Assembly: GCF_008831285.2 (NCBI RefSeq)
Contig: NC_045143.1
Coordinates: forward strand, 5,527,503-5,591,502
Origin: Nymphaea colorata
Taxonomy: Eukaryota; Streptophyta; Magnoliopsida; Nymphaeales; Nymphaeaceae
DNA: 64,000 nt
Direction: 5' to 3'
The notes beneath the pieces are model-generated. The model made no database searches. It was not told where the DNA came from and was given only the letters and a program-made list of their open reading frames with translations. Positions 21,615-55,305 of the stretch are shown one piece after another (positions within the stretch are counted from its first letter, which is position 1; each line of letters opens with the position of its first letter). The position numbers were made by a program, and so were the translations under genes.

Positions 21615-21646
<32 letters not shown>

Positions 21647-24093: not shown

Positions 24094-24170
<77 letters not shown>

Positions 24171-25717: not shown

Positions 25718-25749
25718 CTCTAGGCAGCCAGGAATTTCTTTGTCATAGG

Positions 25750-25785
<36 letters not shown>

Positions 25786-27016: not shown

Positions 27017-27140
27017 CATCTGATTCTTGCGCTTCCCAAAGATGAAGATCTTGGTAACATCGATTTTAAATTGATGTTCATCTGATTCTTGCGCTTCCCA
27101 AAGATGAAGATCTTGGTAACATCGATTTTAAATTGATGTT
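27017..27140 (+). repeat. Perfect 62-bp tandem duplication
   Basis: 27017-27078 and 27079-27140 are identical by eye, each beginning CATCTGATTCTTGCGCTTCC and ending TTTTAAATTGATGTT. Perfect identity implies a recent duplication or an assembly slip. Confidence 0.9.
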
Positions 27141-28748: not shown

Positions 28749-30393
28749 ATGCCAAGTACCTCAATCTTATTCTTTTCACTCTAATGGTTCTCCCTCATGA
28801 TGTTACTAATTTGGCAAGATTCATTTTCAGAATCAGCATGTCTACAATTGATCTAATGTGTAGAGAGATTTAATTAGATCGGAACTTAGCAATATCAATA
28901 TCAACTTTAATCATACAGATTTGAATATTAGGCTTCCAGATTGGGTGCACATTTGGTTCATATATATCTGAATGAGACTCAAATATGGAAAAAAAAAATC
29001 CACACCCAAACGTGATTTGGATCTGAATTTGGTCTTGTTTTCAACATTCAATCAATTGGTCGGCATGTCAGTATACACAGTCAAGGCCTCCATGTTTGAG
29101 AGGGTTGGTCGGCGCATTCTTTCTCATGCACAATGACCTGATCTCAATTACTAAGTACGTGCATATTCAGGACAGCTGAGTACATAAATATTTGTCTCCA
29201 AATCAGAGACCAAATTGCTGTAGAAGATCAATTTTCGCTTTTACAAAAATGACTTAAACTAAAACATGTTTTATATTAAATTAGTATCTACAAACACATT
29301 AGAAGGTTCATATTTTGTTTAAAATATGTTGTAAACAAGAAGTTAAGAATCTTGGTTTTAATTTCTTGCGCAAGTAGTCTGGTATCTACCCATATATATA
29401 TATATATATATATAAGTTGATGAAACTCAAATGATTATATGTTGATGACACCGTATAGTCACTGTCATCAATTGTAACTCTAAACTGGCAAAATAGATTC
29501 GTGGCTCGCATTCATTTCGTCAGCAAAATATGCTCATCGAGCGCCGCCTCATAAATTCTGCTCACTCGTGATTACTGCTTCTTACTTAACTACAGTGTCT
29601 CCGATAGGCGCGAGACAGTTGTTGGAGTTAAATTTATTAAAGAGTGACAAATCCGAGTCATGGGAGGCCATCAATAATGAGCAATAGCTCAAGCGGCCTC
29701 ATTACTTAATAATGGCCAACACCCGCTATTAAATTCAATGCAGTCCGGACGGCCTTATAAATTTCTGTGCATTCATTCACTCTAGGCTCTCATTACCAGT
29801 AAAATTAGTTGCGCCTCACTTTGCTTCTCATCTCCTCTCCGGTTGATCTTCTTCTCAAAAAGTTGTTGGTAGTTGTAGAATGGTAGATATGTGGTCATAT
29901 TCTCATGAGAAAGTCCGACATTTCTAAACCAGATACCACGTGTTATCACGAATCAATCAATCAATCGATCAATCTCTTTCTCTCTTTCAAGGGCTTTAGT
30001 GTAGCTGGTCGGACACTCGGATTGATGGGGTCGCTTACTTTGTCATCGGAGCAGAACCATCGGGGCATGGGCCATGGCTTCCTATCAATTTTTTTTTTTT
30101 TAAGAAAGATACATCTAATTCTATAATTTTAGCCTACAAAAAAAATTTAAAAAATTATGTTTTCAGCTCCTACTAAGATTTTGAAACTATAGTCCCAGCC
30201 TCACGATAAAAAATTCTTATTTTCACTCCTACCTATCATCAGTTTGATTCTCATTAATAGTAGGTTTTAGGTCAGAGATTGTGTTCTGCTACTGATTACC
30301 TTTTTATTCTCTTCCTCTCTCTTCGTTTTTGCTAACCTTTTGATGTTATTTGTGACCAGTCATCACTCAATTTTGTTCATGAATTTTTGTTCT

Positions 30394-30395
<2 letters not shown>

Positions 30396-30483
<88 letters not shown>
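30396..30483. repeat. (CT)n(AT)n microsatellite
   Basis: About 17 CT units followed by about 27 AT units, the same composite type as in GL2-like intron 6. Confidence 0.95.
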
Positions 30484-30485
<2 letters not shown>

Positions 30486-30756
30486 GGGGAGCTCTACTTT
30501 CAGATTGATTTTTTATTTTTCAGTGTTAAAAACACTTAAACTTGTTAGTAAATGTGTTGAAAACCCATGGCCAAACAAAAACTGTGGCTAATGCAACTTT
30601 TGTAATGGTTTTTGTATGACATAAAATAAATAAAAATTCATAACCAGATTCTTTTCTACTGAAGGTTGTTAAAACATAATAGTCCAATTTTGAGGGGAAC
30701 CATTATGTGATAAAATCAAATTATTTGGGTCTATATAAAGAACTGCCCCCACAAGC

Positions 30757-30955
30757 TAGGGCGGAGCCAAGGGCAGGTAAAGGCCATGGCTCCCCTTGAG
30801 ATTTTGAAGAAAAATAAATACATAGATCTTATATTTTTTAGTTTAGGTCGTGTGAAGAATTTGAAAGGTATCTTTCACCTGTTACAAAAAAAAAATCAAA
30901 AAATAATAAGAATAATAATTCAGTTTTTTAATGAAAAATTTTTAGCTCTGTCCCG
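30757..30955. mobile_element. hAT-like MITE, copy at 30.8 kb
   Basis: Starts TAGGGCGGAGCCAAGGGCAG and ends TTTTTAGCTCTGTCCCG, a diverged inverted pair of the family type. No convincing target duplication. Confidence 0.45.
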
Positions 30956-32151
30956 GCCGCACTAAGACCACATGTTGCTTGGCCTTTGTTGAGAAGGACT
31001 GCTTCGACCCAGTTTGCATCCGCCCACCCTTTAACCAGTGGTCGATTTACATCGCCCACACAGACCCATTGGCTTGTTATGATGCAATTGAAAGGTTAGG
31101 ATTTGTTTGAGATATTTAAATTTGGATTATGTTCACTAATATGCTTTCAGTGTCACTAATAACCTTCCGACGGCCCTACATGATCGTCACTAGAGAAGCT
31201 GCCACTAATAAATTGGTAACGAACTGTCATTTGAACTGATGATTGCCTGTGTCCATTTATGTATATAATTAAAAGGACGTTTTATGGTCGTTTATTTGCC
31301 CTGTGAAACTCCAAGCAAGTTCGGTCCCATGAACAGGTAGTGCGTGTTCTTGGGGTCATCACTTTAGCAAGTTGTAGATATTATCGGATTGGTTGTCTGG
31401 AAAATGTTGTCCTCGCATATAATTAAAGTATTTATCTTCATTTATGTCATTACAAGAAGATCAAATATTCACAGTGTGATCAAGCAGGGAACTTGTACAC
31501 TTCAGATGCATGGTTAGTTTTCCTTGCTCCAAATGGGTCTTTCTCCAATGAACTCTCCAAACACTAAAATTCAAATTTTCTCTTTGCACACATAATGTTT
31601 CTTTATCAATGAACTCTCGAGAGCAAACTTTATCAATATTCATCTATCATTATTATTATTATTTGAAGTTCAATCTGTAGCAGATAGGGCCATGCTGGTG
31701 TGACATAGCTACTGACATGGCTGCTTTATGTAGCAATCATGAAGATATCTATTATTCCAAGCAAGATGAACCACTATTTTCTTAGTAACTATATGTCACA
31801 TGCTAATGAACTGTTTATGGAATTAATTAGGTCAGTATATGGTTCATATGTGTCACATAAACTCTTCTGCATTATGGGCGTTTGCTTTTTAAGGCATTGG
31901 ATTAACATTCGCTTCTTAACGCTTCCGTCACATAATTCAGATGGCAGATGGTAGGGTCTGCTTCATCAAAAAAGGAAGAAACATGGCAACATCCAGTTAA
32001 ATTGACAGCAAGCAGTGTTAGCGACAGAAGCAGCTACTGCTGCTGATAGATAGCTAGAGTTCCATATTTTTGTCAGGTCAATCCATGCTTTTTAATTTTC
32101 CAACTGGCTTTTCTGCGTCGTCTTCTCAGAGGCTTCTTACTGTCATATTCT

Positions 32152-32224
32152 GAACTGCATTTCTGTTGAAAATTAAACATGAAGCAGTGAACTGCATTTC
32201 TGTTGAAAATTAAACATGAAGCAG
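32152..32224 (+). repeat. 37-bp tandem duplication
   Basis: 32152-32188 and 32189-32224 both read GAACTGCATTTCTGTTGAAA then ATTAAACATGAAGCAG, with no visible change. Confidence 0.9.
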
Positions 32225-32718
32225 AAATAAGAAGAAAGGCAATACATGGCATTCATCGACTTTAGAGTCTATAGTGCTCAATACAATGGCTTTTACAACT
32301 GTTTCTAAAAATTCCTTATAAATGAGCTTTTACATATGTTACAATGATCCATATCCTTTTGTTTTGGCACCATCGATATCCTTCCAGATTTTGTTGGCAT
32401 GCAACGTTGCATGAAAATCCATTTGTGAATTTATTTGCAGCAGCAATCTCGCTGCAAAATTAATTTCATTTTCTTATCAATTTATTTTGCCTTTTAATTG
32501 TGCTTCTATTGCTATTGCCTGCTTTCTCTAAACTCAAAATTTGTTTTTTATATAAAAACTCTCTCTCTTTTGTTCTAGGCTTTCCCTTCCTGCAGCCTTC
32601 AACACATCCTACTCCCCACATTATACCACTTTTTTAATTGCTTTTATTTTTCACAATTTTTTAATCCTCCCCATTGTTCGCATTTATTTTAATTACGAGC
32701 TTGACAGCTATGATTTTG

Positions 32719-32779
32719 ACATGATCAATTATATTTTGTCAGATCCTTTTTAGGAGCTGCATTTTCATATCCATTTTTT

Positions 32780-32876
<97 letters not shown>

Positions 32877-32985
32877 GATCTCTTAAATTTGTGTTAAAAC
32901 ATGATCAATTATATTTTGTCAGATCCTTTTTAGGTATCCATTTTTTCTTATATATATATGAGATCTCTTAAATTTGTGTTAAAAC
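32719..32985 (+). repeat. Tandem duplication with one hugely expanded (TA)n
   Basis: Two units, 32719-32898 and 32899-32985, share ACATGATCAATTATATTTTG, CAGATCCTTTTTAGG, ATCCATTTTTTC and ATCTCTTAAATTTGTG in that order. The (TA) run is about 45 units in the first copy and about 5 in the second; the first also has about 14 extra bases after TTTTTAGG. Confidence 0.85.
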
Positions 32986-35479
32986 GTGTTTTAAACAAAA
33001 TGTGAATTCTTAATACGTCTATAAACATTAATTTAATATAAATCATGTTTTAATTCCAAGTTTCTTTTGTGAAAAAATTAATGCATCTACCAACAAAATT
33101 TTGATGTTATAAAAGACATTTATTTTTTTTCCTTAAAAGCGCATCATTAATTTTTTTTTTAAATCTAATTTAATATATGTTCCTCCCCAAATTATTCTTA
33201 AGATCATGTATATCTATAAGAATTTTGTAGATCGCAAAAAAAAAAAAAAACTTTAGTACTTAATTTTAATGGGTCTAATTTTTGTCCCAAAAACAAAAAC
33301 AACTGTATTTTTGCCCGAGGATCACGCTTCATCACGTGAGAGGAGCTTGCGACGCTTAATTGTGTAGTAGAAGAGAAAGAATGGCAGTTGAAGAAGAAGG
33401 GCAGATAGCAGCCACTTTCTTCCAACCAGTAATGATGTAGATGTCGACAACCCATTATTCTCTCGCATTTACTTTTTCCTTTTCTCTTTCTTCGAAATCT
33501 GGATTCATCGGTCTTCTTCCTCATCCCATCCTCCTTTTTTTAAGCACTAAGTCTGTGTGTCTTAAATATCCGTTTGCACCAAACACCGACCGATTCGGGG
33601 ATGTATACAGCTGACTCTAATCGACTTTTGTGAATTAGCTAAAAATATAATTTTCTAAATCATTTTTTCAAGTGAGGAAAAATTAAGTAAAAGTAAAATT
33701 AAATTAAATTGTTTTTAGAAAAACAGCTAAAAACTGATACATGACACTCTTTCCCATTATTATAGTAGACCGAAAAAACTATTAGCCTCGAGCAAGAAAT
33801 ACTGAAGTCATAATTCATTAGATACTTTATACATTAGAATTAGAATTCTTGTCTGCCAATTCTTACTAGGTTTACGATTACTAGTACCGAAACGAGTCAC
33901 ATACGTACAAAGGTGCAACCATAAATTGGCATCGAATTAAATACCGACTTTGAGTACTCGGATGGGTTTCCAAGTGATAAAATGATAAAAATGCCCTTAA
34001 AAAATAGTGAAAACAAGAAACTAAAAGGTAGAAAAATATGTCTCAAGGAGTGCAGTGCAATTCGACAGACAAAAACAGGTTACATTTAAGGTGTTTGATG
34101 TTTAAATCATGTGGTCACTGTCACGTTTTAGTGTGTTACTTTTCTTGACTGCAAATAATGATAAGCATGACACCCAAGTTAAAAATATACCATATATTCA
34201 CCAGGCTCTCTGAAGCAAGTCAAAACCTTAGAGGTACAAGAGTATGACTTTGACAATTTGACGCTATGTTTCCCTTAAATAAACATTAAAAAAAAGGTGG
34301 AAAATGTCCCTCGCAAATCATGTGGCCTTTTTTGAGGGGTCGACCACTAAAACCCAGTGATCGGGTCTAAGCGTCATTCCTGCATAAAAAATTTTTCTTT
34401 TCTTTTCCTTTCTTTTCTTTTCTTTTTTTAAAGGAAAGGGCCTTGTCAAATACCCTCCTCCTCTTTCTTTGCATTGTCATAGGCATGGTATGATGACCCT
34501 TAATTGTCCACTCTATGGTGCATAAGCAAGAAAAAAATCTCAAAAACAATGATATGCAAAAACTTGATCTAATTCCTAATCAGATTCAAATTCAATGTGA
34601 AGATTCATAATTGAAGTCAAAATCCAAGTTAGTGGGCTCTTTACACATAAATGTTAAATCTTATGTTAGCAAGATCTAAAATCAATTGTAAATAACAGAT
34701 CCAAATTTGAGTCTGACTACATAAAATCGCCGAGGGGTTAGTGCAACAGTCATGGAGGGGGCTGGTAAGCAGCCAATTACTATTTTGAATCCTAGGACAT
34801 CAACTCCCTTGTGCTGCAAAAGGAAGCCACTGACGTTCAAATTGCTGAGGCACCAAAAGACAACCTTATATCCTACAGAAACAAGAGATTGGTAAAAACT
34901 TCGGGCCTCTTGTATGAGATAGGATGAAATACTCTTTCTATTTACCCAGAACGGACTAGGTCAAATTGGGTAAAGCTTAGATATAACTAAATTTGAATTG
35001 TTTACATCCCCACATTCAAACAAACAGCTGAACTAAATAAATCCATAGTAAATGGTACTAACTAGAGGTGCCTTCCTTGTTGTCCAGAAAGCACCTCAAG
35101 CAACCTCTCAAAACCACAATAAATTATTTTAGTAGGGACTTAAACAGTTCGGATTCAGGTTCAATCCAATCTCTACCATATTTTAACTTATTCAGATTCT
35201 ATATAACAAAATTCGGATGCTGGTCCTTTTCAGAAACAAATTCAGCTCCGGCTGTCGTAAGACCTGACGTTTATGTGGAACTGTATCAGATCTTTATGAA
35301 GATAAAAGTAGAAGTCAGATTCAGATTCTAATTTGGTTTAGAAACTGTATACTGAATCTGATCAGTGATGGAATTTATCAGGTCCGACTACGGCCATTGA
35401 AAATTGGATCCGTAGTTGTATTTATCGGATTCATTTATATGTCCCTTGATGCAATATGTGAATATGTGAAGAACAACTC

Positions 35480-35656
35480 CAGCAGGTTGAAGGTAGAAAT
35501 TTTTTTGGCTAAGCCTAAGAGGCATTAGTAATAAAATTTTAAATTTTTAAAGGCTTGCAATATGTGAGTCAGAAAAATTACTTTGATGTGTCAATGTGAA
35601 AGTAAACAATTTTTGTGGGTCTGTGTGGGCAATTGCCTACACTGCCTCCGCCCCTG
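35480..35656. mobile_element. hAT-like MITE next to the inverted duplication
   Basis: Starts CAGCAGGTTGAAGGTAGAAA and ends with GTGTGGGCAATTGCCTACAC then TGCCTCCGCCCCTG, the family end. The flanks AACAACTC and ACAACATC are related by a one-base shift. Confidence 0.5.
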
Positions 35657-35667
35657 ACAACATCCAG

Positions 35668-36021
35668 TTAAATTAAAGCTGGATCCTCTTCCAAAAGATT
35701 TTGAACCATTTCCCTTTCTACCCTCAAGAGAGCAGCTCCACTCTTGGACGTCAAGCTGAAATACTCAAGCCTCCTCGGCACCTCCTGGTTTCGGGTGAGC
35801 AGAGTTCGAGCTACTTTTTGAAAGAAAGCCGAAGCATCCACCCAACTCCTCATCTCCCAAGATATATAGCTGCATCGATGGCTCATGATGCTCCTGCTAC
35901 GCTTCAACTTGTATGTCGGTGGCCCCTTGATTGCATACCCAAGAGTTGGCTCTCTAGAAATCAAAGCGGAGGCTGGTCGCCTGCCAGCTCCTACGCATCC
36001 CGTTGGACCAACCTTCCCCAC
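35668..36021 (-). other. Unrecognised 117-codon open frame
   Basis: A GC-richer open frame in an AT-rich setting, with a long partially overlapping frame on the other strand (35701-36036). The predicted product is basic and contains SLTSKSGAALLRVEREM near its C-terminus. I recognise no family, and there is no sign of splicing or a partner exon. It could be a fragment of a transposon or a dead gene. Confidence 0.2.
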
Positions 36022-36300
36022 CTCCTGCTTGATTGAACAATTCAGAACAAAGCCAGCAGTGTGTACATTACTGCAATTTCAAACCCACCACTGAACACAG
36101 AAAAATATGTCGGCTCCATTTTTCTCTAAATATGGTGTTTCTCAAGAAGTTTTACATGTAATAAATTTAGATTACTTAAAAATCTAAAAGGGGACTTTTC
36201 ATTCATTAGATTTTAACTTATAGTGATCAAAACAACATGCTCTTTGAATATAGATGTACAAGGAATGAGTTAAACCAATTTCATTTCATTATAAGATCAT

Positions 36301-36470
36301 TTCAAGGGGCATAGTGCAATTGGGTGGCAAGGCTGCTCACACTCAGTGATCCGACGTTCAAATCTCCTAGTTGTTGTCATGCTCCAAAAATTCATTATAC
36401 GTTTGGGTTTCCATTAGTGTTAGTGTATATGCATGTGTGTGTGTGTGTTATATATATATAGACATGACCA
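36301..36470 (+). mobile_element. Probable tRNA-derived SINE
   Basis: GGCATAGTGCAATTGGGTGG resembles a Pol III A box and GACGTTCAAATCTCC, about 40 bases on, resembles a B box. The body ends in a TGTGTG / TATATA tail (about 36,436-36,460). This is the layout of plant SINEs. No target duplication was assigned. Confidence 0.45.
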
Positions 36471-37261
36471 TGCTTGCTCGTTGCCACAAAATTTTCCTTC
36501 ATCATAATTCTAGTAAACAAGAAAAATTATTACGAAGATGATACACATACAATGCGAGTAAAAAACTTAAAATGATACAAAAATTTTTAATAGTCTATCA
36601 ATTGTAGTTGTAACTATAAGTGCGATTCACATGCACACACTTACTTTTAATGCAAAATCACATACTACAAAAAACAAAGTAAAAATAAAACTGCACAAAA
36701 AATGGAACAAGAAAGAAAATCTGTCTCAGAAGAAGAAAATATAAAATTGAAAGACAAAGGCAAAAACTCATGTTGTCAATGAGAAAACCTTAGGCTATCT
36801 AGGCAATGTTTTAGGCATTTTCAGATTGCATGTTGCCTAAAACCGTGGGATGGTGGCAAAGCCATCTGCTGATTTTCTGCTAGCTCCACTCTGTGGCAGC
36901 CATAGTTACTGCACACTTCTATCTACGAGGGAATCTCACCTCTCAAGAAGCTTGTTTCGGAATCCGGGAACTTGACAATTCCTTGGAGAGGCGAAAACTT
37001 GGAGAAGCTTGGTTCTCACTTGCAGGAAGCACATCTCAAATAATTTATTTTCACTTCATTGTCTATTCTTTTATTTTATGATGCAGAGCGGGACCGAAAG
37101 AACCCTGTAAATCTGGATCTGCCAGATATATCCAGGAACTCACTTCCCCATAGGAGTGCCGTTGGATCCATGTGTGCATCATGACTGAGGACAGGTTGAA
37201 GTACAGGTGAGATGGTCCTCACGTGGGACGAAAGTGCAGATGAGTTGCTGGTTCAGTTCTT

Positions 37262-37650
37262 GGGGTTGTACACGAGTCGAGTCGAATTCAAGCCGGTCAG
37301 CTCAACTAGACTCATATTTTTCAGGTTGAGCTTTACTTGAACTGTACAAGATCAGCTTGAGCTCGACTCAATAGAGCAAGTCCTAGCTCAAGCTTGACTC
37401 ATTTAAGCTCGTTTAGCAACTCTTCATTTGACTTGGTTAATTTTTAGTTTGAAAATTATAAACAACAATGATTACCTAAATTAAACGAGTTTACTCAAGT
37501 TTAATCAAGTCGAGTTTATGCAACTCGAACTTGACTGGTTTGTAAGCTCAAGTTTTTATTTGAATTGGAGCTCAACTCATTTACAGACTAATCGAGTTTA
37601 AACTAGCAAATTCGAGTTGCACTCGAGTTGGGCCGGCCTGTTGTACAGCC
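37262..37650. mobile_element. MITE-like insertion, only in the left arm
   Basis: Starts GGGGTTGTACACGAGTCGAG and ends GGCCGGCCTGTTGTACAGCC, with short inverted ends around TGTACA. The interior is full of self-complementary TCGAG / AGCTCAA motifs. The right arm lacks it: there GCAATCATAGTTGTAAAGG runs straight through. TCAT near both sides of the left-only segment may be a short duplication, but the left-only segment begins at 37,184, about 78 bases before this element, so the event was not a clean insertion. Confidence 0.5.
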
Positions 37651-38689
37651 TCATTCATAGTCGTAAAGGACTCGGTTGGATTTCGGATAGTCCTATAGTT
37701 TTATTTATATTGGATATATTTCGACTTTTTTTTATTTCATTTAGATTGGACCCATTTACTAGATCCATATATCCATTTAGTATGTGTTGGCGTGGTATAA
37801 AGGGACCATACGTTCCTTTCTTGGGGCTAGTTGATGATTTTGGAGAAAACTATTGTTCTTTGTTCTCGATTATTTCATTACTTTCATTGCTTCTTCATTA
37901 GTCGACCTAACATTTATCAGTTGATTGTGAGTTAGAGTAGAAATCCTCTTCCCCACTGCATCACTTGCATTTTGTTCATTGTCTTATCCTTTTTCTTTTT
38001 TAGTTTACTTTGTACTTTTTACATTAATGTATACGATATTATGTTGCAGTAAATACAGAATTAATTTTTCTTGAACTGACTACTTACTTTCGTGTGTTTT
38101 ATTGATTTAAAGTATTGTTATATCATATATACTCTTTTTGCTTATATAATTGTTCTATATATACTGAACAATCTTGCTACCTGCTCCCTGGAAAAATTTG
38201 ACGTCTGCTTCCCCGCTTACGGTTCCTGAATTCATTTCTTTATCTTGGTAACTACTTGTCAAGCTGCCTGAATAGAGGCCAAAGGTTGATTTTCTAAAGA
38301 AAGTGATGTGAGGGAAAGGGCCATGACATGGATTTTCGTTAAGAAAGAGAAAAATTAAATTTTCTTAATAGTTACCTGCTCAAAACTATTTGGATGAAAG
38401 TAGCAACTGAAGCATGGGTTTTGAATGAGGCATGCATGTGGGTATTTCTTATGAGTATAAATATGAATGTCCAACAAAGAGGGTTTGAATCTGTGGGTAA
38501 TGAAGAGAAGAAGAGCCCTCTCTTGCAGATTTGGTACCTCAAATTGGTGTAGAATTTTGACATGTTGAGTTCATCACCTTCTGGCGTCTTCTATTCTTAG
38601 TCTGAAAGCAACCATCTTTGTCTTGTTTACCTTGCATTTTTCGGTTATTTAATTAGCCATCCATAAGTATTCATGTCATCATATAAGTG

Positions 38690-39830
38690 CATTTGCTGAA
38701 GAAGATATTGGGCGACATGCTATGGCTGCAACATCTCTTGGTGCTGCAAATGCTTGCAAATCTTCAGGATTACTGCAATGGTGTAGGATGAAGTAACTGA
38801 CGTTCTTAATCCTTCTTGTTTGTGCATTTAAGATATGATTGCACTTTTCGTTGAAGAACTTGTGAATAGATTGCTTGTAAGATGTGACGCTGCATTGCAG
38901 AGGCAAGAATTGTCCACAATGGCAGAATGTGCAAAAATTCTGCCACACGTGCGAGATTCTGATCTTGCCCTCTTGATATTTCACTTTTTACTGGATTCAA
39001 CAATCTTCTGCTATTAATTTCTATTTTCAGGTTTTACAGGGATTACATGTTTGATATTTTCTTTAACGTGATATAGATGACTCTGATTTGCTTGGCAGCT
39101 ATAAGTAGCCGTTATGCTACTTTAACAAAAGTAAAAATGAGCTTACGTTTGTGTAAAAATCACGGTATTGATATGGCAATTGACAAAGCCAAAATAGAAG
39201 TAATTTCATTATTTAACACACAAGCAGCATGAGGTTTTAAGCTTCACCTTATGTGCTTGGACATACAATGGTTGTCAAGTCATTGCATGAGAATATGCTT
39301 TTTGTCAAATTGAGGTTTAAGTTTCAACTTGGTACTTGGAACATAACCAATTGCTAAGCTTGCTATGTACTTGCATCAGAATATGCATTTTGTGATGGTT
39401 GGAAGTATTGAACATTGTTCTGTATCCCAGTGCTTCAAAACAGGTTCTGCTCTCTTATTTTCTACATGTCCTTCAGCTTTCAAGGTTGTGGTGTTGCTTT
39501 TATGGCGTGCAGTTTAACAGGGGTAGCTCTGCCATGCAACACTGTGTTGCTTCTCGACAAATCTTCATTCATGTGAAAGTGATGGTCTTAAAGATAATGC
39601 TACTGCAGCGTGACATCTGTGGCATGTGAGATTGATGACATCTAATGCGTCGCTGGTCTACGCTTGTAGAGGGAGAAGATGAGGTCGAAATGCGTTCAAG
39701 CTTGTTGAGGGAGAATAAGCTTTAGTTATCAACTCGAACAACCGAGGATGGATAAGGAGAATAAATGGTACAACTTGGAAAAATGACCATCTAAAAAACA
39801 GCTGATAGCGCAGAGGAGCAACGTATTGGA
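38690..39830 (+). pseudogene. 3' part of an unidentified gene, left-arm copy
   Basis: Exon-like blocks in order: about 38,690-38,790 (EEDIGRHAMAATSLGAANAC, absent from the right arm), 38,835-39,017 (LFVEELVNRLL, ALQRQELSTMAECAKILPHV), and about 39,660-39,780 (VEGEDEVEMRSSLLREN). The text is polar and coiled-coil-like, and I do not recognise the family. Compared with the right arm, the last block has lost bases near 39,776 and now reads through to a stop after TGGTACAACTTGG. Whether any of this is still spliced and translated is unknown. Confidence 0.3.
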
Positions 39831-40355
39831 ACTAAAGAATGGGAGGGACCCAGTTAGAGATGGAAAGCTGATGCTATTATGCAGAGACACGGACGGGACT
39901 TTGTCAGATTGGCTAGCGGTCTGTTGATTGATTCTGTAGCTGTGTTCGAGAGTAAGCCTTATTGTTGTGAGCGACTATGTCCAAGTAGTTTGTGTTTTTT
40001 TACCGGATTTGAGCATCCTAGTTCTTCTTGTAAATAGCTTTTGTTGGCATAAAAGTAAGGGGCTTACTTCCTCCCTTCAATTTTCATTGGAAGTACACCA
40101 AACAGTTTCAGATGGTGCAAGGAGTAATGGACACACCAATGAGAGGAAAACTATGACTGCGCATCTGACAAATGCCACTTTTTTCTCTCTCATTGTTGCA
40201 ACTAGTGAATAGAAAACTTGAAGATCACGAAGATTATAATAACCACCCTTCCCGAATTGCTTCCTACATATTAATATTCAAAAGACAGCATGTAACCACT
40301 TAAAGCAAGAGTCTGTCATCACACTAAAATGCAGATTCTAACTGCGTTTGAGTAT

Positions 40356-40972
40356 ATACCCAAGTTTGCTAGTCCAAGCCACACTACCATCAACACTCTC
40401 AAGTATATCCTCCACAAACTTTATCAACTAACACAATCCTCCCAAGAAGTTTTGATCAATCACTCTTTCTCCATCCACAACATGCGCGAAATCCACAAGC
40501 TTCACAGAAGCCGCCACCGGTCCCGGCCATACATCAACAGCACCGAAGTCAAGTAGAAGTGGTAGAACGTCTGCTTCTCGAACCACTGCTTCAATTCCAG
40601 CAACTGCGCCAGAACTCCGGTCGGACCGCCAAAGATGGTGGGTGCATGCGCGCAATCCGGCGAGCTTGAAGAAGTGTTTGATGAAACAAACGCCCTCAGG
40701 ACCGATCTAACTTTATCAGCACTGAGAATGGCCTTCACCCAACGCCTCCCAGGCTTCCATAAACCCAGTTCTTCAGTCTGGTACACCCGCAACCCAGAAA
40801 TCCTAAACCCCAGTTTCAAACTGGTGGAAGTTCTATCCTTTTCCACTCATTTGTCCACGTACTCATCCGACGCTTCCAGGCCCGAAGGACCGATTTTGAT
40901 GTCAATTACAGAGGGACGATAAAGGGATGAGACGACGTCGTTGATGAGAAGGTGCTCCCAGAGACCCGAACC
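40356..40972 (-). pseudogene. Broken antisense copy of the IPK2 gene
   Basis: The minus strand matches the IPK2 gene at 46,161-47,045 from about residue 85 onward. Lesions: the leader and N-terminal half are missing (junction about 40,972, corresponding to right-arm 45,852 joined to 46,400); the stretch after the PxxxDxKxG motif is altered; TGA at 40847-40849 replaces Cys-121 just before VEKDRTSTSLKLGFR; 19 bases are deleted at about 40,520, shifting the frame after LLMYGRD; and about 14 bases containing the native stop are gone. The 114-residue open frame 40502-40846 is therefore only an internal piece of a dead kinase gene. Confidence 0.9.
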
Positions 40973-41410
40973 TACATTTTGTTCTTAATCCCAGACATGA
41001 CTTCACGTTCTCAAAATTTCTACATGACTTCACGTTCTCAAAATTTCTGTTCTACATGACTTCATGTAACTCAATTTAATGATGGCAGTCATTACAACTT
41101 TTGGAGATTGCGATAATTCTTTAGTCAGCAGCAACTGGGGCAGCCGATAGCAATAGCTACACAGTAGAATAGTGGTGACAAGACTGCAGTAACCACAACT
41201 TCAATGGTGGAGTTTTTTGGTGATTGTCAAGCAGTACCAATAATGATAATTTGACCTGGTACTTGGTAGGATAATGAATTAAGCGATGGGAATGGCAGAG
41301 GCAGCAGCAGTATGGTAGCTGTTGGTAATGGGAAGGTGGCAGCGGCTAAGTGCTAGTAGTGAGGGCGAAGTTGGCCCATTTGCATAAGGAAAGCAACGTG
41401 AAACATAATG

Positions 41411-44400
41411 CTACGTCTTTCTTACTGTAAAAATGGGTCCGGAATTTAGAGGCAAGAGGCTCCAACAACGACCATTACTGTCAACACAACATGAGTGCCA
41501 ACCGCACTGATAAGTGCCCACGGGGAACGCGGAAACATCAAGCATGCATGTTGAGAAACCCTGCATGTTCTGGTTAGGCCGTGAACTTGCAAATGACTTC
41601 ACGAAACCTGACTTTTCAAGCCCTTCAACCGTTTCAGCTGTCCTGCCAGAAGCCTCACCCTTGATATACTGCAGTAATTTTTCATTTAAGTTCATCATTT
41701 CTTCAGTCTCCCAAGCTCGAAAACCTACACTCACTTGTTTCACATCCTCAGCATCTACCAGACAATCAGATGGTCTAGCTGCAACAATGCAGTACATCTT
41801 CATAATGCCAGTATGCAGCTTAGGTGGTAGATTTTTCATTTGAACGCAGAGATTAAGATGAAACCAACAGCCTTGAGCAGTCGACTGTACACAATCCTTG
41901 CTTCCCGAATTTGAAAAGATCTCTGCACCAATACAACGCCGACAACACAACCAAGAACAAGTTTGATTAGTAAAGATTGACAAATACCTCAAAAGCAATG
42001 GCAATCTCATTTATACAACAAAAGGATTGGCGACAGCAGTTTAACACATAAGATCGAAATAAACAGCTAGCTTATCCTACATGGAAATGAAGTTCTCGTA
42101 GTACGTGATGTAAAACTATGATGTAAAACGCATACCCATATGACTCTCTTGTAGCACCTTTTTGCAAGTAATGCAGAAGAATGCCACAAGAGGTTGGAAA
42201 TTATTTCTCAAAAATACAGAAAAAGGAAGAAACTATTGTAGGAGAAGATTTAACTCAAGGGTCCTGGAGCTCATGAAGTGGACGAAGTTTTCAAGTGCTA
42301 CGGCATCCTTTATACCAACCTAAAACAGAGCACGATGAGCAGCACTTATGCTCAGCAGCATTCAAATTACATGAAGAAGTTGTTGCTTCTATACCATGAT
42401 GCGACATCAATATCCAATACAGGTAAGGTTCAAAAGCATTTATTGTATGTGAGAAGGTACCTTGTTCGGAAAAAAAAGCCTGGGATACAGAAAGGCAGGT
42501 GAATCCATCTTCCCAATACTTCTGACAGATGAACCACCCCAGTCATCACTAGATCGACTCGGTCAATGTTACTGTTTTCCCCAACTGCACACTTTTGCAA
42601 CCTAAGCACCCGTGGTATAGCAAACCTGCAAATTTCGAGTGATCCCTCCAAGACATAGTCATAGCTAAAAAACTGTGTTCCAGATGGCAAGAAGAATACG
42701 TTCCCAAAAGTTCTTGAGAACAAAACAGTTCTTCACTGATCTCCGTATCTGCATGCCACAATCACTCAGCTAGATCTTGTACCAGCTTTGCATGAAGCTG
42801 CTTTCTTGAACTCCAAGAGCTCAACACATCAAATTCATTATCTGGCAGTTCAGGAAAAAAGACAACAAAGGCAGCAGAGAAGGCTAATAAGGAACAATTA
42901 AGTGCAAGAATCGAGATATATCTAAAGCTTTCCATTTCGATGTCCATGAATGACATGGCTAGAAGATCAAACTCTTTGGCTAAACTTCTGAACTGAAATG
43001 ACACGTGAGCTGATATGTCAGTGCATCCAAAATTTGCGCATTGTTTGGGAAAGCTCATCCTGACATTCTTTTCAGCAGGTTCTTCATTTCTGACGCTCCT
43101 TTTATCACAAGTGAAAAGTTCCAACATGCCTAACATGTCCGACAAATATTCAAGGGTCTTTGCTCTTAGCTTCAAAAACCATCTCTGAAAATAAAAAGTA
43201 GGTTCTAATGTAGTAGCAGTAGATAACATTACCTCTGCAAGACAAATTTTTCTGTGCACTTCTGCAACTTTAATTCCACATTCTTGCATGTAGGGTATTT
43301 TGGAGCAAAAGTCAGTGGCTTCCATTGCAAAAATCCTGCTAAATTTCCTGTCGTCATTTATCTTTACCCAGTCAAGAAATTGGATGGTTTTTTCATCAAA
43401 AAAGAGGCTGTGGAGTTCATTTTCAGCACAGGCAAAACCTGAAACTGATCGCAACCAACAATAACAAGAATCTGATTGCACTCCTCCAAGACAAAGCAAC
43501 TGGCTGAATATGAATGAAGTTGCAAACCAAGCACCTTGAATAGCAGCATATTTACTAATCTTGTAGACTATCCAAAATTATTCCGTCATTTTTTTTGCAA
43601 AATCCAAAGTGAAGCTTTCATGTTTAACTCAGAAAGAATCATGCTAGTTTTTCAGGCAATCATTTTCATGATTAGTTTCTGTCAGGCCACCAGTCCTTTT
43701 TCCACCATCACGGACCAGACATTGGCAGCTCACTGGTTAATTAAAACCTTCAGGTCCCTCCTGCCTACCGGAGAGTACACCCACCTTCAACCTCGTGCCA
43801 AGAGATGTCCCTCTTGAACTTCGAACTTGTTATCGACCATCAACTTGGTCATATTCATAAATTGCCCCCACCGAATAAGAGGCACTATTCTGAGAATTTT
43901 GTTTCAGACATTCATGCCTGCTGAAGATCGAACTCTGATTTGGTTTTTTCAATAAATTGAGCTTTACATGAAAATGCAGAAAGAATGAAACGATCATATA
44001 CATCCCAGAATTATGACTGAAGTTATCTTTCCAGACACATTCCATAAGCAAACTAACGGTATCGCTAATATTAGCATCAATAGTATCGGCTGCATCAAGA
44101 AAATCAAGACGTGCAAGAAAATCTGCATAAAGAAAACAACAGACTTGCAATTGATGAATCCAGCATCCTTCCTTGAATTGTAGGGACTTGACCACTAGAT
44201 GAGTGAGAATTTTCTTCATTATCGTAGCCTTTTCTCATTTCTTTGGAAATGACAACAGAATCACCATTTAATTTTCCCTGAGCACCAACCAAGGTTTCTA
44301 CCAAGCCTTTGACCCTGCAAAGTGCTAGGTGAGATACCATAGTATACTCCTTCATGAGAACCCTAACAAGTCCAAGTAAATGTTGCAATTCTTGCTCTAG

Positions 44401-45640
44401 CTCCCCATACAATTCATCCTTTGATCCACATATGGCTACTTCTGACTTGATCTCAGCAGCCCCCTTCTCACAAAGCAAAGTAATTTCATCCATTCTCAAC
44501 AGTGTCAGACTACATGGGAGAATTTGTAGATCATTTTCACCAGACAAGGGGCTTGTGCTTTGTGGATTAGTTTGATAGCACTTGGACATGATCAAGCATT
44601 CATCAAATTTATCACGCCAAGTTTCTGGGGTAATCTTCCTAACGCAGAAAGCTAAGTAGGCCAAAAGCAACATGTTTGACTGCCAGATTATGAGAACGAG
44701 CAGCAATTTCTACAACCTTTATCAAATCAACCACAATAGACTGATCCAGAGATGGTAGAGAAAAGCGGAAAATCTGTCAAGTAACAATGAAATTTTCAGT
44801 ATATAGCGAAAGGATAATTATTATTTTTTTCTCCTAATGTGTATGTAAGGAAGGTATGAGAGTGAGTGAGCTGAACATGCATACACACAGACAGATGGAG
44901 CTCAGGAGGAGGGGAGAGAGTAACCTTGCGCAAAACTCTCATGGCCTCACATCGCAAATTCACAGGACTATCAGACTTCTCTAAAAGTCCAAGAAGAGCT
45001 CTCAATGCATTCTCATGAACAGGAATACATGAAATTGCTTTTGGTGAAAGAAGCCAAAAACATTTCAATGCTGTTATATGTGAATCGGATGGCAGATCAA
45101 TCCTCAGAAATGAAAGGAGCAAATCCATCTGAGGCCAAGGTAAAGAAGAGCACAAATTAATGCCAGAAAAAAGGAATTTTTTTTATGACAACAACAAAGC
45201 ACCTAAAAGAAAATCCACCAAACTCAAGCAGTAGAATACTAGTGGCATATGAATGCTCTAATGACCAAAAAAAGTGTCTGGTAAAAGCCAGCAATAGCAC
45301 TATAAGAAGCACTTTAAGAAAAACCAAAAGTATCCACCTGTCAATATTGATAACCACAATAGCCAGCATAAATAGAAGCAACTACTTGTCTAAAAGGACA
45401 ACATAACGATACAAGCAAAAGAAATAATTAGTCAACCATAGCCTAGTTTCACATACTAGTGTAAAAAATAATGCAGCTCAACTGGTTGCTCACCTGGTCA
45501 GAAAGGAGAACTGATGACTTCGAAGCAAGTTTTTCAAGTGCTAGAAGCATGTCAGCCACAATTTCAGCATTTTGAGAATCCATAGTCAATTTTTTTTCCA
45601 GTCTACCAAGCATAAGATAAAAGTTCTCCAGTCAAAGGAT
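41411..45640 (-). pseudogene. 5'-truncated Integrator subunit 7-like gene
   Basis: Minus-strand exon-like blocks resemble the middle and C-terminal part of the plant ARM-repeat protein EMB1895 (INTS7-like). INTS7 is a scaffold subunit of the nuclear Integrator complex, which cleaves snRNA and other Pol II transcripts. Blocks: about 45,640-45,494 (GRLEKKLTMDSQNAEIVADM), 45128-44925 (HITALKCFWLLSPKA), 44773 to about 44,130, to about 43,830, about 43,540-42,430 (AAIQGAWFATSFIF; YFQRWFLKLRAKTLEYL), and about 41,930-41,411 (DVSAFPVGTYQCGWH). The first two joints have proper GT..AG. Damage: a stop at 44639-44641 with a frame change, another frame change near 44,130, TGA at 42762-42764 inside continuous homology, and a frame change near 42,720. 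The N-terminal half is absent because the copy stops at the inverted-repeat boundary. The family call is from memory and moderate. Confidence 0.55.
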
Positions 45641-46160
45641 GAACAAGTATTCGCTCTTCTTATTAGAACTTCATTCAGAAGCGGTGCATAGCTATCGGTT
45701 GCCCCAGTTGCTGCTGTCTAAAGAATAATCGCAACCTCCAAAAGTTGTAATGACTGCCGTCATTAAATTGAGTAACATGAAGTCATGTAGAACAAAAATT
45801 TTGAGAACGTGAAGTCATGAATGGGATTAAGAACAAAATGTAGGTTCTCAACTGAAGTGCATCTTTGAAATGCCCGCTACCTCACCGTAAAGCCACGGCG
45901 TTCCGGGTGGCGTGCTGGTTCTTCGCCGCATCGCACTTGTCAATCAAGACAAATAACGCGGCGAGACGCGGTTCCTCTTCCTTTGTGTCGGTGCGAGCCG
46001 TGCGGCATCTTCCATCGAATAGGCGGAAAAACTGGTGGTGGTTTATTCCTTCTTTTATATTGGACCGGCATCTTCTGTCGAACCCAAGGTGGAAAAGCTA
46101 GTGCTGGTTTCGGTTGCTATGCCGGGCTCTTGAGGGAGGAGGGAAGCAGAACGGAAGGAG

Positions 46161-47045
46161 ATGTTGCTGAAAGCCCCGCCGCACCAGGTCGCCGGCCACC
46201 AAGCGGCGGAAGGAAATCTCGGACCCCTTGTCGACGGCGCAGGGCGCTTCTTCAAGCCGCTGCAAGACCATGATCGGGGGTCGAAGGAGGTGGGGTTTTA
46301 CCAATCCTTCTGGTCGAACTCCCAGTTGCCACCGAATGTCTATCGATTCTTCCCATCCTTCTACGGTACCCAACTTTTAGAAGCTTCGGATGGTTCCGGT
46401 CCCCGCGAGCACCTTGTCATCAACGACGTCGTCTCATCCCTTTATCGTCCCTCTGTGATTGACGTCAAAATCGGGTCCCGAACGTGGTATCCCGGCGCGT
46501 CGGATGAGTACGTGGACAAATGCGTGGAGAAGGACAGAACTTCCACCAGTTTGAAACTGGGGTTTAGGATTTCTGGGTTGCAGGTGTACCAGACTGAAGA
46601 ACTGGGTTTATGGAAGCCTGGGAGGCGTTGGGTGAAGGCCATTCTCAGTATTGATCAAGTCAGGTCGGTCCTGAGGGCGTTCGTTTCATCGAACGCTTCT
46701 TCGAGTTCGCCGGATTGCACGCATGCACCCGCCATCTTTGGCGGTCCGACCGGAGTTCTGGCGCAGTTGCTGGAATTGAAGCAGTGGTTCGAGAGGCAGA
46801 CGTTCTACCACTTCTACTCGACGTCGGTGCTGTTGATGTATGGCCGGGATGAGGCCGACGGTAGCCGACCGGTGGCGGCTTCTGTGAAGCTCGTGGATTT
46901 CGCGCATGTTGTGGATGGGGAAGGAGTGATTGATCATAACTTCTTGGGAGGATTGTGTTCGTTGATAAAGTTTGTGGAGGATATACTTGAGAGTGTTGAT
47001 GGTAGTGTGGCTTGGACTAGCAAACTTGGGTCTGCAGCAGATTGA
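46161..47045 (+). CDS. IPK2: Inositol polyphosphate multikinase (IPK2/IPMK)
   Basis: An intronless, intact 294-residue kinase, close to the usual plant length of about 300. IPK2 phosphorylates Ins(1,4,5)P3 at the 6 and 3 positions to give Ins(1,3,4,5,6)P5, feeding InsP6 synthesis; plant IPK2 proteins are found in the nucleus and at the plasma membrane. Visible features: N-terminal APPHQVAGH and GPLVDGAGRFFKPLQ; the inositol-binding signature PSVIDVKIG (97-105; Asp-101, Lys-103); TSVLLMY (221-227), equivalent to the SSLL segment; the metal-binding VDF (245-247; Asp-246); and DHNFLGGL (259-266). The ATG at 46161 matches the expected MLK-type start of the family. It sits in the right arm of an inverted duplication; the left arm has a dead antisense copy. 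The region upstream (45,880-46,160) is distinctly GC-richer than its surroundings. Confidence 0.92.
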   Translation: MLLKAPPHQVAGHQAAEGNLGPLVDGAGRFFKPLQDHDRGSKEVGFYQSFWSNSQLPPNVYRFFPSFYGTQLLEASDGSGPREHLVINDVVSSLYRPSVIDVKIGSRTWYPGASDEYVDKCVEKDRTSTSLKLGFRISGLQVYQTEELGLWKPGRRWVKAILSIDQVRSVLRAFVSSNASSSSPDCTHAPAIFGGPTGVLAQLLELKQWFERQTFYHFYSTSVLLMYGRDEADGSRPVAASVKLVDFAHVVDGEGVIDHNFLGGLCSLIKFVEDILESVDGSVAWTSKLGSAAD

Positions 47046-47613
47046 TATACTCAAACGCAGTTAGAATCTGCATTTTAGTGTGATCACAGACTCTTGCTTT
47101 AAGTTGTTACATGCTATCTTTTGAATATTAATATGTAGGAAACTTTCAAGAGTTTGCATGTATGGCGATTCCAGAGGGTGGTTATAATAATCTTCGTGAT
47201 CTTCAAGTTTTCTGTTCACTAGTTGCGACAATGAGAGAGAAAATGTGGCATTTGTCAGATGGGCAGTCATAGTTTGCCTCTCATTGGTTTGTCCATTACT
47301 CCTTGCACCATCTGAAACTGTTTGGTGTACTTCCAATGAAAATTGAAGGGAGGAAGTAAGCCCCTTACTTTTATGCCAACTAAAGCTATTTACAAGAAGA
47401 ACTAGGACGCTCAAATCCGGTAAAAAACACAAACTACTTGAACATAGTCGCTCACAACAATAAGGCTACTCTCGAACACAACTACAGAATCAATCAACAG
47501 ACGGCTAGCCAATCTGACAAAGTCCCGTCTGTGTCTCTGCATAATATCATCAGCTTTCCATCTCTAACAGCGATCTTCTCATTCTTTTAGTTCCAATACA
47601 TTGCTCTGCGCTA

Positions 47614-48640
47614 TCAGCTGCTTTTTAGATGGCCATTTTCTTCTGCCTCCAAGCTGTACCATTTATTCTCCTTATCCATCCTCCGTTGTTCGAGTTGATG
47701 ATTATTCTCTCTCAACAAGCTTGAACGCATTTCGACCTCATCTTCTCCCTCTACAAGCGTAGACCAGCGACGCATTAGATGTCATCAAGCTCACATGCCA
47801 CAGATGTCACGCTGCAGTAGCATTATCTTTAAGCCCATCACTTTCACATGAATGAAGATTTGTCGAGAAGCAACACAGTGTTGCATGGCAGAGCTACCCC
47901 TGTTAAACTGCACGCCATAAAAGCAACACCACAACCTTGAAAGCTGAAGGACATGTAGAAAATAAGAGAGCAGAACCTGTTTTGAAGCACTGGGATACAG
48001 AACAATGTTCAATACTTTCAAGTTTCAACCATCACAAAATGCATATTCTGATGCAAGTACATAGCAAGCTTAGCAATTGGTTATGTTCCAAGTACCAAGT
48101 TGAAACTTAAACCTCAATTTGACAAAAAGCATATTCTCATGCAATGACTTGACAATCTTGACAACCATTGTATGTCCAAGCACATAAGGTGAAGCTTAAA
48201 ACCTCATGCTGCTTGTGTGTTAAATAATGAAATTACTTCTATTTTGGCTTTGTCAATTGCCATATCAATGCCGTGATTTTTACACAAACGTAAGTTCATT
48301 TTTACTTTTGTTAAAGTAGCATAACGGCTACTTATAGCTGCCAAGCAAATCAGAGCCATCTATATCACGTTAAAGAAAATACCAGAACATGTAATCCCTG
48401 TAAAACCTGAAAAAAGAAATTAATAGCAGAAGATTGTTGAATCCAGTAAAAAGTGAAATATCAAGAGGGCAAGATCAGAATCTCGCACGTGTGACAGAAT
48501 TTTTGCACATTCTGCCATTATGGACAATTCTTGCCTCTGCAATGCAGCATCAAATGTTACAAGCAATCTATTCACAAGTTCTTCAACGAAAAGTACAGTC
48601 ATATGTTAAATGCACAAACAAAATGGATTAAGAACGTCAT
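47614..48640 (-). pseudogene. 3' part of an unidentified gene, right-arm copy
   Basis: Counterpart of 38690-39830. The terminal block, 47760 down to the TGA at 47614-47616, reads VEGEDEVEMRSSLLREN then KENKWYSLEAEENGHLKSS and is open here but damaged in the left arm. A second block, 48602-48420, has VEELVNRLL and ALQRQELSIMAECAKIL. The first exon-like block of the left arm is missing. The text looks coiled-coil-like; I cannot name the family. No upstream exons are visible beyond the arm edge, so it is at best a 5'-truncated copy. Confidence 0.3.
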
Positions 48641-49771
48641 TTAATTCACATATTCAAACCCTCTTTTTTGGATATTCATGTTTATACTCATAAGAAATAC
48701 CCACATGCATGCCTCATTCAAAACCCATGCCTCAGTTGCTACTTTCATCCAAATAGTTTTGAGCAGGTAACTATTAAGAAAATTGAATTTTTCTCTTTCT
48801 TAACGAAAACCCATGTCATGGTCCTTTCCCTCACTTCACTTTAGAAAATCAACCTTTGGCCTCTTCTCAGGCAGCTTGACCAGTAGTTGCCAAGACAAAG
48901 ACATGGATTTCGTACAGCAAGATTATTCAGTATATAGGAGAATCATATAAGCAAAAAAATTATACGGTATAACAATACTTTCATTCAATAAAACACACGA
49001 AAGTAAGTAAGTAGTCAGTTAATGAAAAACTAATTATGTATTTACTACAACATAATATCGTATATATTAATGTAAAAAGTACAACGTAGATTTAAAAAGA
49101 AAAAGGATAAGACAATGAACAAAATGCAAGTGATGCAGTGGGGAAGAGGATTTCTCCTCTAACTCACAATCAACTCAGAAATATTAGGTCGACTAGTGAA
49201 GAAGCAATGAAAGTAATGAAATAATGGAGAACAAAAAAACAATAGTTTTCTCAGAAAATCATCAACAAGCCCCAAGAAAGGGATGTGTGGTCCCTTTATA
49301 CCACAACAACACATACTAAATGGATTTATGGATCTAGTAAATGGGTCCAACCTAAATGAAATTTAAAAAGTTGAGATATATCCAATATAAACAAAACTAT
49401 AGGACTATCCGAAATCCAACTGAGTCCTTTACAACTATGATTGCACACATGGATCTAACCGGCACTCCTATGGGGAGTGAGTTCCTGGATATATCTGGCA
49501 AATCCAGATCTACCGGGTCCTTTCGGTCCGGTCTGCAACATAAAGACTAGACAATGAAGTGAAAATAAATTATTTGAGATGTGCTTCCTGCAAGTGAGAA
49601 CCAAGCTTCTCCAAGTTTTCGCCTCTCCAAGGAATTGTCAAGTTCCTGGTTTCCTAAACAAACTTCTTGAGAGGTGAGATGCCCTCGTAGATAGAAGTGT
49701 GCAGTAACTATGGCTACCACAGAGTGGAGCTAGCAAAAATCAGCGGATGGCTCTGCCACCAACCCATGGTG

Positions 49772-53200: not shown

Positions 53201-55305
53201 ACACAACTTTTTCTTTTGTTTTGAGTTTTTAAGATTGTTTTCATCATGTATTAGGTATGAATTTTGTTTTAAATTTGAGTTTTTGTGGAATTTAGCTTAT
53301 ATATCTGTGCTGTTCATAGATACTTTTTTTGTCGTACCTGCATATCCAAATTTTCTAAAATCGCCGTACCAGTACCCACGTCCCCTTACCTATACCTGTA
53401 CCTATGTGACTTAGCTTGCCTCACATTATATACTTGCTTGTTTTTGTGTGCCTTTGTTTGTCAAAAATTTGGGTCCTTCGATCACATCAATTGTGTCCCT
53501 TTATGTTGCTTGATCTACCAACTTTCTTGAGATCTATAGCTCAAGAAGTGCATGCTCATAACTGTGATGCCAGCATGACCTAAGGTGGATGTGCTGTCTT
53601 ATTTGTTTTCATGTACTTTCCTTTTGTGCTGTACCGTCTTTCTTATGGTTCTAACACTTATTTCCTTCTTGCTATGATCTCTTCTAGCAAGCCAATTTTC
53701 ATCATGGTTTGACATTCTTTTCATGAATATGTTTGTCTAGGTTTCTCTATGAATTAGATTCACATCTTGAACGCTTCCTGAGGTCTGCTAAAATGGCGAG
53801 AATTACATTGCCCTTTGATTTACCAATCATGAGAGCTATACTCATCCAAACTGTCAGTGCTTCTAAATGTAGAAATGGGTCGCTGAGATATTGGCTTTCT
53901 TCAGGACCTGGTGATTTCCTTTTGTCTCCATCTTGTCGTGAAAATCCTTCTCTTTATGCAGTTGTGATCCAAGATCAGTCTTTGCCCAATTATGGAGGTG
54001 TTAAAGTTGTAACATCAACTACACAGATAAAGTCTCCACAATTTGCAACCATGAAAAGTGTAAATTACCTGCCCAATGTTCTGTCAAAGATGGAGGCAGA
54101 GGATCAAGGTGCTTTCGCCTCAATTTGGTTAGACGATGAAGGCTTTGTTGCAGAAGGTCCAAATATGAATGTTGCATTTATCACAGAAGGAAAAGTGCTG
54201 TTGATGCCACGTTTTGATAAAATTCTCTCTGGGTGCACAGCAAAAAGAATTTTAGTTCTTGCAGAAAGGTTGGTAAAAGATGGAAGGCTTAATGGAATTA
54301 AAGTGGGAAATGTTGCAGTTGAAGAGGGGAAGGCTGCCTCAGAAATGATGCTCATCGGCAGTGGTACTCTGGTACGGCCTGTCATACAGTGGGATGAACA
54401 GCTCATAGGCAATGGTAATAATATATTTGTTCTTTCTCATTCATTTGTTTGTTATTTATAATTTTTGTTCTTATCTCTTCGACCTTATTTCAGCAAAGCC
54501 TTTCATTAATGTTAAGCAGAACCGAGAATGAGCTTGGTCTACCTTTCTTTGTCTAGTTCTCCTGTCATTTTCATGGTCAAACTATGTCTTTAACTAATAT
54601 CACCAGATAATGGAGGATCACTTGAAATTGTTAGATCAGGTTAATGTTTGAGTAATTGCAAATGTCAATGACTAGTTTGGTCAAGTAACTAGTGAAAAGC
54701 TTCTGGTACCCCCTAACAGTTTTTTCAGGTAAACTAGGTATGTAATTACTCTGGGTCTATGTCACAAGACTCTCAACTCACATGAAACTCCACGTTTCTC
54801 CTTTTGTGTCCCTTTATGAATCATACTATGAACGTCAGATGCTGTGGTACATCCCTGTATCCACATCCGTATCCATGTGGCATCAAGTTCTCTTAGTAAA
54901 TTGTGGTTATGAACCATACCGTCAGGTTTAAGTACGTCTGGGACTCTGGACTGTTGGCTGCTCTTTTATCTTTGTGGTACTGGCAAAAATCTTTTAATGT
55001 AGGTATGTGGTTCTATTAGTTTTTCAAAGGAAAAAGCATATCAGTTTTTTGCCTCGATGATTAGACTTTCATGTGCCTCCCTTGTCATCTTTCACTGCAG
55101 TAAGCGATTTACTGCCGGTGCACTTATTTGAATGCTTTCTCTGGCCAGAAACATATATTTGCCTTGAATTTTGAAACTCAAGTCCCTTTTTCTGTTTCCT
55201 ACGTGTACAGGGGAAGGAGGGCCTATAGCTTCAGCTCTTTTGGATCTTCTGCTGGATGATATGAAAAATTCCCCTACTTCAATTCGCATACCAGTTCCTT
55301 ATTGA
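50289..55305 (+). CDS. DAAT: Plastid D-amino-acid aminotransferase / ADC lyase-like, 5 exons
   Basis: Exons 50289-50472, 51561-51616, 52190-52368, 53741-54414, 55211-55305. All joints are GT..AG and phases agree, giving 1,188 bases (395 residues plus TGA); Arabidopsis DAAT is about 373. It is a class IV PLP-dependent aminotransferase. The family moves amino groups between D-amino acids and 2-oxoacids, and some members have 4-amino-4-deoxychorismate lyase activity in folate synthesis. Visible features: an N-terminus of about 85 residues that is basic and Ser-rich (plastid targeting inferred); DDHMVHRGHGVFDT (121-134); SLRYWLSSGPGDF; the PLP lysine in MKSVNYLPNVLS (Lys-245); EGPNMNVAF (278-286; Glu-278); LSGCTAKR (302-309); and a VPY C-terminus. 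The 56-base exon 2 was found because only it repairs the frame between exons 1 and 3 and supplies the expected Ser-rich VSLLSTSE. The start at 50289 is the first in-frame Met of exon 1. Confidence 0.9.
53110..53405. repeat. GTACC-rich inverted-ended repeat in DAAT-like intron 3
   Basis: The ends GGTACGCCTGTTTTGCCCCT (about 53,112) and ACCTATACCTGTACC (to about 53,403) form a diverged inverted pair, with further short palindromes (ACTGGTATGGCG, CGCCGTACCAGTAC) just inside. This looks like a non-autonomous transposon, but the class and target duplication are not determined. Confidence 0.4.

Follow-up and report, generated by a model that had tools for sequence, protein, structure and literature searches.

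Genes and arms of the inverted repeat

A 64-kb window of the Nymphaea colorata genome (contig NC_045143.1, positions 5,527,503 to 5,591,502, forward strand) was analysed for an inverted repeat whose arms each carry a copy of IPK2, the gene for inositol polyphosphate multikinase. All coordinates are positions in this window, and L and R stand for the left and right arms. The locus contained the following features, given with the evidence for each:

36842..41154, minus strand: left arm of the inverted duplication, with the dead IPK2 copy and a SEC10 fragment (self-BLAST, alignment, divergence)
37183..37651, no strand: 469 bp found in the left arm only (self-BLAST, alignment)
38683..39614, plus strand: frame-broken fragment of SEC10 (exocyst) in the left arm, about residues 220-323 (PF07393 below cut-off, tblastn)
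40357..40972, minus strand: IPK2 pseudogene, 3' part only, with two stops and small deletions (alignment, codon comparison, Pfam IPK in two frames)
40972..40973, no strand: deletion point in the left arm, where 549 bases of R 45843-46391 are absent (GGTTC at both edges)
41411..45592, minus strand: INTS7 pseudogene filling the spacer, 5' part absent (Pfam PF22966 and PF24437, frames, tblastn)
45688..49770, plus strand: right arm of the inverted duplication, with the intact IPK2 and a SEC10 fragment (self-BLAST, alignment, divergence)
46161..47045, plus strand: intact IPK2 frame, 294 amino acids (open reading frame, Pfam PF03770, PDB match 4frf)
R 47701..48517 and L about 38920-39719, no strand: low-divergence tract (10 substitutions in 800 aligned columns)
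47806..48590, minus strand: SEC10 fragment in the right arm, about residues 256-323 (PF07393 below cut-off, tblastn, alignment)

Self-BLAST recovered four inverted matches, all collinear, between the arms: R 45688-45819 with L 41154-41023 (93.9% identity), R 46392-48648 with L 40972-38789 (91.5%), R 48647-49443 with L 38495-37652 (85.8%), and R 49437-49770 with L 37182-36842 (91.5%). These matches agreed in their coordinates with the original prediction, which had described an imperfect palindrome of two arms around a 4.5 kb spacer (41155-45687) and had proposed a self dot plot as a check. The longest inverted match was 2,273 bases, against 22-80 bases in five control windows permuted in two-base blocks and searched at E up to 10; the inverted repeat is real. 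The IPK2 copies are head-to-head and divergent, each being read from the spacer side outward, and about 150 bases of IPK2 flank further upstream were kept in both arms.

The IPK2 frame of the right arm was open from the ATG at 46161 to the stop ending at 47045 (294 codons). It covered positions 1-189 of the 190 of the PF03770 profile (E=1.1e-44), and its best PDB match was 4frf (E=7.6e-89), named inositol polyphosphate multikinase alpha and presumably an Arabidopsis protein. The translated frame carried the motifs PSVIDVKIG (residue 97), SVLL and VDF, the first of which is of the PxxxDxKxG type. By its full-length domain in an intact frame, the right copy is a predicted plant IPK2.

The left copy aligned with the right one over 615 columns of the 3' part only, and had two stops in the register of the right frame as well as small deletions. 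With the stop counted, 204 of the 295 codons aligned fully and 91 were gapped, 77 of these lying in the 5' deletion. The 549 lost bases comprised 318 of the 5' flank, the ATG and the first 231 coding bases, and both edges of the deletion carried the five-base microhomology GGTTC. Matching short repeats at deletion edges are the usual mark of microhomology-mediated deletion, and the loss of the 5' part is a microhomology-flanked deletion. An intact gene in the right arm, and a dead 3' part in opposite orientation in the left arm, had both been proposed from the letters and were recovered here; the left copy had also been called antisense, which holds in that it lies on the minus strand, although both copies read away from the spacer.

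The spacer matched the plant INTS7 C-terminal domain PF22966 (E=1.8e-56) and the INTS7 helical bundle PF24437 (E=3.3e-5, and only 0.85 in one whole-frame Pfam scan). When an approximate Arabidopsis INTS7 protein sequence was used as a tblastn query, an ordered match ran from about residue 241 to the end of the protein, from 45592 down to 41420, with boundaries that depend partly on this query and a first piece that was weak by itself (E=0.33). Some of the frame changes may be introns; three stops sit within one continuous alignment (43643-42678), and INTS7 is for this reason regarded as a pseudogene. The similarity began less than 100 bases from the inner edge of the right arm, while the left inner junction was about 250 bp beyond the INTS7 stop codon. 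For the N-terminus of INTS7, the minus-strand frames between 45.6 and 64.0 kb were searched with Pfam without a match, and tblastn with the same approximate query gave nothing better than E=8.1. A PDB search with the translated INTS7 exons gave no match.

An approximate SEC10 protein sequence as query produced four tblastn pieces of 32-35 residues (60-69% identity) and two further pieces in the left arm, with 47% identity over 30 residues and 89% over 9. Each SEC10 fragment was on the strand opposite to the IPK2 copy of its arm. The alignment showed that 295 bp with the first SEC10 piece (L 38499-38793) were absent from the right arm, and two PDB searches with SEC10 pieces had no match. The INTS7 pseudogene, the SEC10 fragments and the low-divergence tract were absent from the first description of the locus, which is richer in dead genes than was then described.

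Divergence between the arms

End-to-end alignment of the arms gave 193 substitutions in 3,440 aligned columns (5.6%; Kimura two-parameter distance 0.0585), with insertions and deletions in addition. The divergence was uneven. The lowest 800-column window had 10 substitutions, a value reached in none of 10,000 permutations (permutation minimum 21), while other regions of the arms diverged by 5.6-9.1%. This tract contains none of IPK2, and only a minor part of it overlaps the SEC10 matches, which makes interlocus gene conversion between the arms the probable cause of the near-identity of these 0.8 kb.

Over the IPK2 copies, 35 of the 204 aligned codons differed; synonymous codons accounted for 14 of the nucleotide differences and nonsynonymous codons for 28. 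Among the 21 residue differences (2 of them stops), 4frf agreed with the right copy at 11 and with the left copy at 1, and with neither, or had no residue, at 9; the two-sided binomial probability of 11 against 1 was 0.006. Since it is mainly the left copy that carries the residue changes, the right IPK2 appears to be under constraint, and it would mostly have kept the older residues while the left copy drifted.

Two differences in length were specific to one arm. The 469 bp of the left arm at 37183-37651 showed many CTCGA-type motifs by eye and ATGA-like repeats at the edges, and are probably a transposon inserted after the duplication. At 40995-41048, the left arm had a perfect 27-bp tandem duplication, of which the right arm had one copy.

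Origin of the locus and the silencing question

The locus is most probably an ordinary local inverted, head-to-head segmental duplication in the course of decay. Some 4 kb carrying IPK2 and a SEC10 fragment would have been copied in reverse; the inner edge of the right copy is next to the truncated 5' end of INTS7, a gene that is now also dead. The left IPK2 would afterwards have lost its 5' part by the microhomology-flanked deletion and then collected stops, while the right IPK2 would have kept its open frame under apparent constraint; gene conversion would, at some point, have re-homogenised 0.8 kb of the arms. INTS7 is cut short at the right junction but reaches its stop codon about 250 bp before the left one, and on these grounds the left arm is placed, with moderate confidence, as the older site and the right arm as the new copy. 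The original order would then have had IPK2 downstream of INTS7 at the left site, with the right arm as its inverted copy, and the surviving IPK2 would therefore be the new copy. The comparisons above directly show the two arms with the broken genes in and between them, the deletion, and how unevenly the divergence is spread.

A mobile element that had captured the IPK2, SEC10 and INTS7 fragments, with the arms as its long terminal inverted repeats, would bring together three unrelated gene pieces and account for inverted arms as their bounds. This origin is improbable. The flanks of the outer ends at 36841/49771, compared by eye, showed no target-site duplication, and no transposase domain was found in the frames scanned, which made up part of the window; a terminal-inverted-repeat transposon was rejected on these two grounds. 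Genome duplication with subsequent gene loss is also expected to leave dead genes side by side. The whole-frame Pfam scans covered the window outside 1-19000 (both strands), 19000-26700 (minus strand), 38999-48599 and 58599-64000 (both plus strand), and were of limited sensitivity, as they found IPK and the INTS7 C-terminus and missed the SEC10 fragments in range. Palindromes are a known assembly problem, and two haplotypes or paralogous contigs might have been joined in inverted orientation, but this is the least likely of the explanations considered: the arms differ by 5.6% substitutions and by insertions and deletions, sequencing fold-backs are expected to be near identical, and a fold-back made in assembly is unlikely given how very unevenly the arms diverge, their differing flanks and an unrelated spacer.

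The original prediction had also suggested a natural IPK2-silencing locus acting through hairpin RNA. A plus-strand transcript would cross the left copy in antisense, then the INTS7 spacer and then the right copy in sense, and fold into a long hairpin, whose dicer products would silence or methylate IPK2 in cis or in trans, as at PAI1-PAI4, the soybean I locus and VIM4-VIM2 of Cvi-0. The capacity for pairing is there: the reverse complement of the left arm shared 1,194 of the 4,063 21-mers of the right arm exactly, and 215 of the 868 21-mers of 46158-47045, and the longest perfect run was 181 nt between the arms as a whole and 71 nt within the IPK2 frame. The arms are thus, as judged from their letters, long and alike enough to form double-stranded RNA, and this part of the suggestion stands. 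The other part is weakened by the layout, in that divergent copies need a transcript that crosses the 4.5 kb spacer: because the copies point outward around it, their own transcription gives no hairpin unless it begins in or beyond the other copy.

Known systems bear on the question in both directions. Small RNAs from the 86%-identical Arabidopsis inverted repeat IR1074 (PMC3203196) speak for silencing. So does the soybean I locus (CHS1-3-4), which is likewise a large inverted repeat with duplicated genes and acts as a 27-kb inverted repeat cluster; it differs in being a CHS cluster with small interfering RNAs against CHS7 and CHS8, while the IPK2 locus has one gene (PMC3804491). PAI1-PAI4 of Arabidopsis Ws is also a plant gene in inverted duplication, but is tail-to-tail, with read-through transcription, methylation and small RNAs, whereas the IPK2 copies are head-to-head with a spacer (PMC3203196). 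The close gene-pseudogene pairs of rice resemble the locus in having a duplicated pseudogene less than 10 kb from its apparent parent, and differ in that small RNAs were mapped there (PMC2708354). In comparison with the soybean, PAI and rice systems, the IPK2 locus is known from sequence alone. The nearest likeness is to VIM4-VIM2 of Arabidopsis thaliana, also head-to-head duplicated genes. Its Cvi-0 allele makes small RNAs, with start codons about 96 bp apart and copies that are 99.86% identical, and shows that a head-to-head layout is no bar (PMC13213937). The Col-0 allele, whose gap of 2.8 kb and identity of 92.22% come close to those of the IPK2 locus, lacks the Cvi-specific small RNAs, which counts against silencing; the IPK2 locus differs from Cvi-0 in its 4.5 kb spacer with a dead gene and in having one copy broken (PMC13213937).

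Further evidence from the window also argues against silencing. The left copy is without 318 bases of its 5' flank and without its start. A Pfam scan of the plus strand at 29000-38998 gave no gene, but it was a weak one, as the SEC10 fragment in this range escaped it too. The right IPK2 was not depleted of CpG, with observed/expected ratios of 1.02 in the coding sequence and 1.09 in its 5' flank against a 1-kb window median of 0.55. Its CpG content suggests no mark of lasting dense methylation, to which coding composition may contribute. The CWG/GWC ratio was 0.88 in the right IPK2 frame, 1.00 in its 5' flank and 1.32 in the window, and is ambiguous, since CpG decay also creates CWG. C-to-T-type differences between the arms affected 28 of 347 CG, 21 of 456 CHG and 65 of 1,962 CHH cytosines, counts that are uncalibrated and have no neutral control. 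More frequent change at CG cytosines is ordinary in plants. With the signs of constraint on the right protein added to the divergent copies, the kept CpGs and the Col-0 form of VIM4-VIM2, the suggested IPK2-silencing locus is not supported, and hairpin silencing is considered very unlikely. Much the same low probability is given to a related form, a locus that silences within inositol phosphate signalling: the spacer would now and then be transcribed from the plus strand, and the resulting long IPK2 hairpin would adjust IPK2 itself in cis or its relatives in trans, with pairing partly kept by gene conversion, as an early small-RNA gene. A literature search found no paper joining plant IPK2 with an inverted repeat and small interfering RNA. 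A silencing role for the locus has no positive support in the sequence and is given a low probability.

Several points weigh against the reading as an ordinary, decaying duplication. The polarity of the duplication is read, without an outgroup, from this single window, and the activity of the right IPK2 is a prediction from its intact frame. Both SEC10 fragments were below the curated cut-off of PF07393, with E=0.0044 and 6.9e-4 in two scans for the left fragment and E=1.5e-4 and 0.0039 for the right, and the boundaries of INTS7 and SEC10 depend partly on approximate query proteins. Of the 11 residues that agree with the right copy, 4 (106-111) sit together next to a small gap and may have changed in a single event, in which case the count is 8 against 1, about 0.04 by our own arithmetic. 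A mutation rate that varies locally could give the same pattern as gene conversion. CpG loss was two-sided over the arms (15 right-arm CpGs lost in the left, 13 left-arm CpGs lost in the right; 9 against 2 over IPK2 and 5 against 11 on the 3' side), so that methylation of the left copy alone is not shown. In rice, gene-pseudogene pairs less than 10 kb apart are enriched among small-RNA pairs, at 21 of 38 against 437 of 11,956 pseudogenes (PMC2708354), which favours silencing; our own division of 21 by 437 gives about 5%, to be taken as a rough prior for one tissue.

Remainder of the window and meaning of the locus

The only other recognised gene in the scanned frames was an aminotransferase class IV domain (PF01063, E=5.9e-36) at 53748-54389 on the plus strand. 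A weak match to PF18897 (E=0.23) was taken as chance, the tRNA search found none, and no Rfam family reached its gathering score. Self-BLAST showed three dispersed direct copies of about 210-260 bp, 72-78% alike, at 4564-4775, 6475-6727 and 56851-57111, possibly an old small transposon or a repeat like a short interspersed nuclear element. Perfect (TA)n tracts of 54-89 bases were present at 14347-14431, 14854-14925, 24097-24167, 30430-30483 and 32786-32874 and are possible trouble spots for slippage or sequencing. Two apparently recent tandem duplications, each of two perfect copies, were present at 27015-27140 (unit of about 62 bp) and 32151-32224 (about 37 bp).

If the duplication is an ordinary one, the locus would be a clean case of inverted-duplication decay, in which one IPK2 copy was truncated at a five-base microhomology and the other survived, and in which part of the arms was probably evened out by gene conversion. 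Should small RNAs be present, the locus would resemble VIM4-VIM2 before or during the transition from a harmless palindrome to one that silences, and would tell whether silencing can work across a spacer of 4.5 kb.

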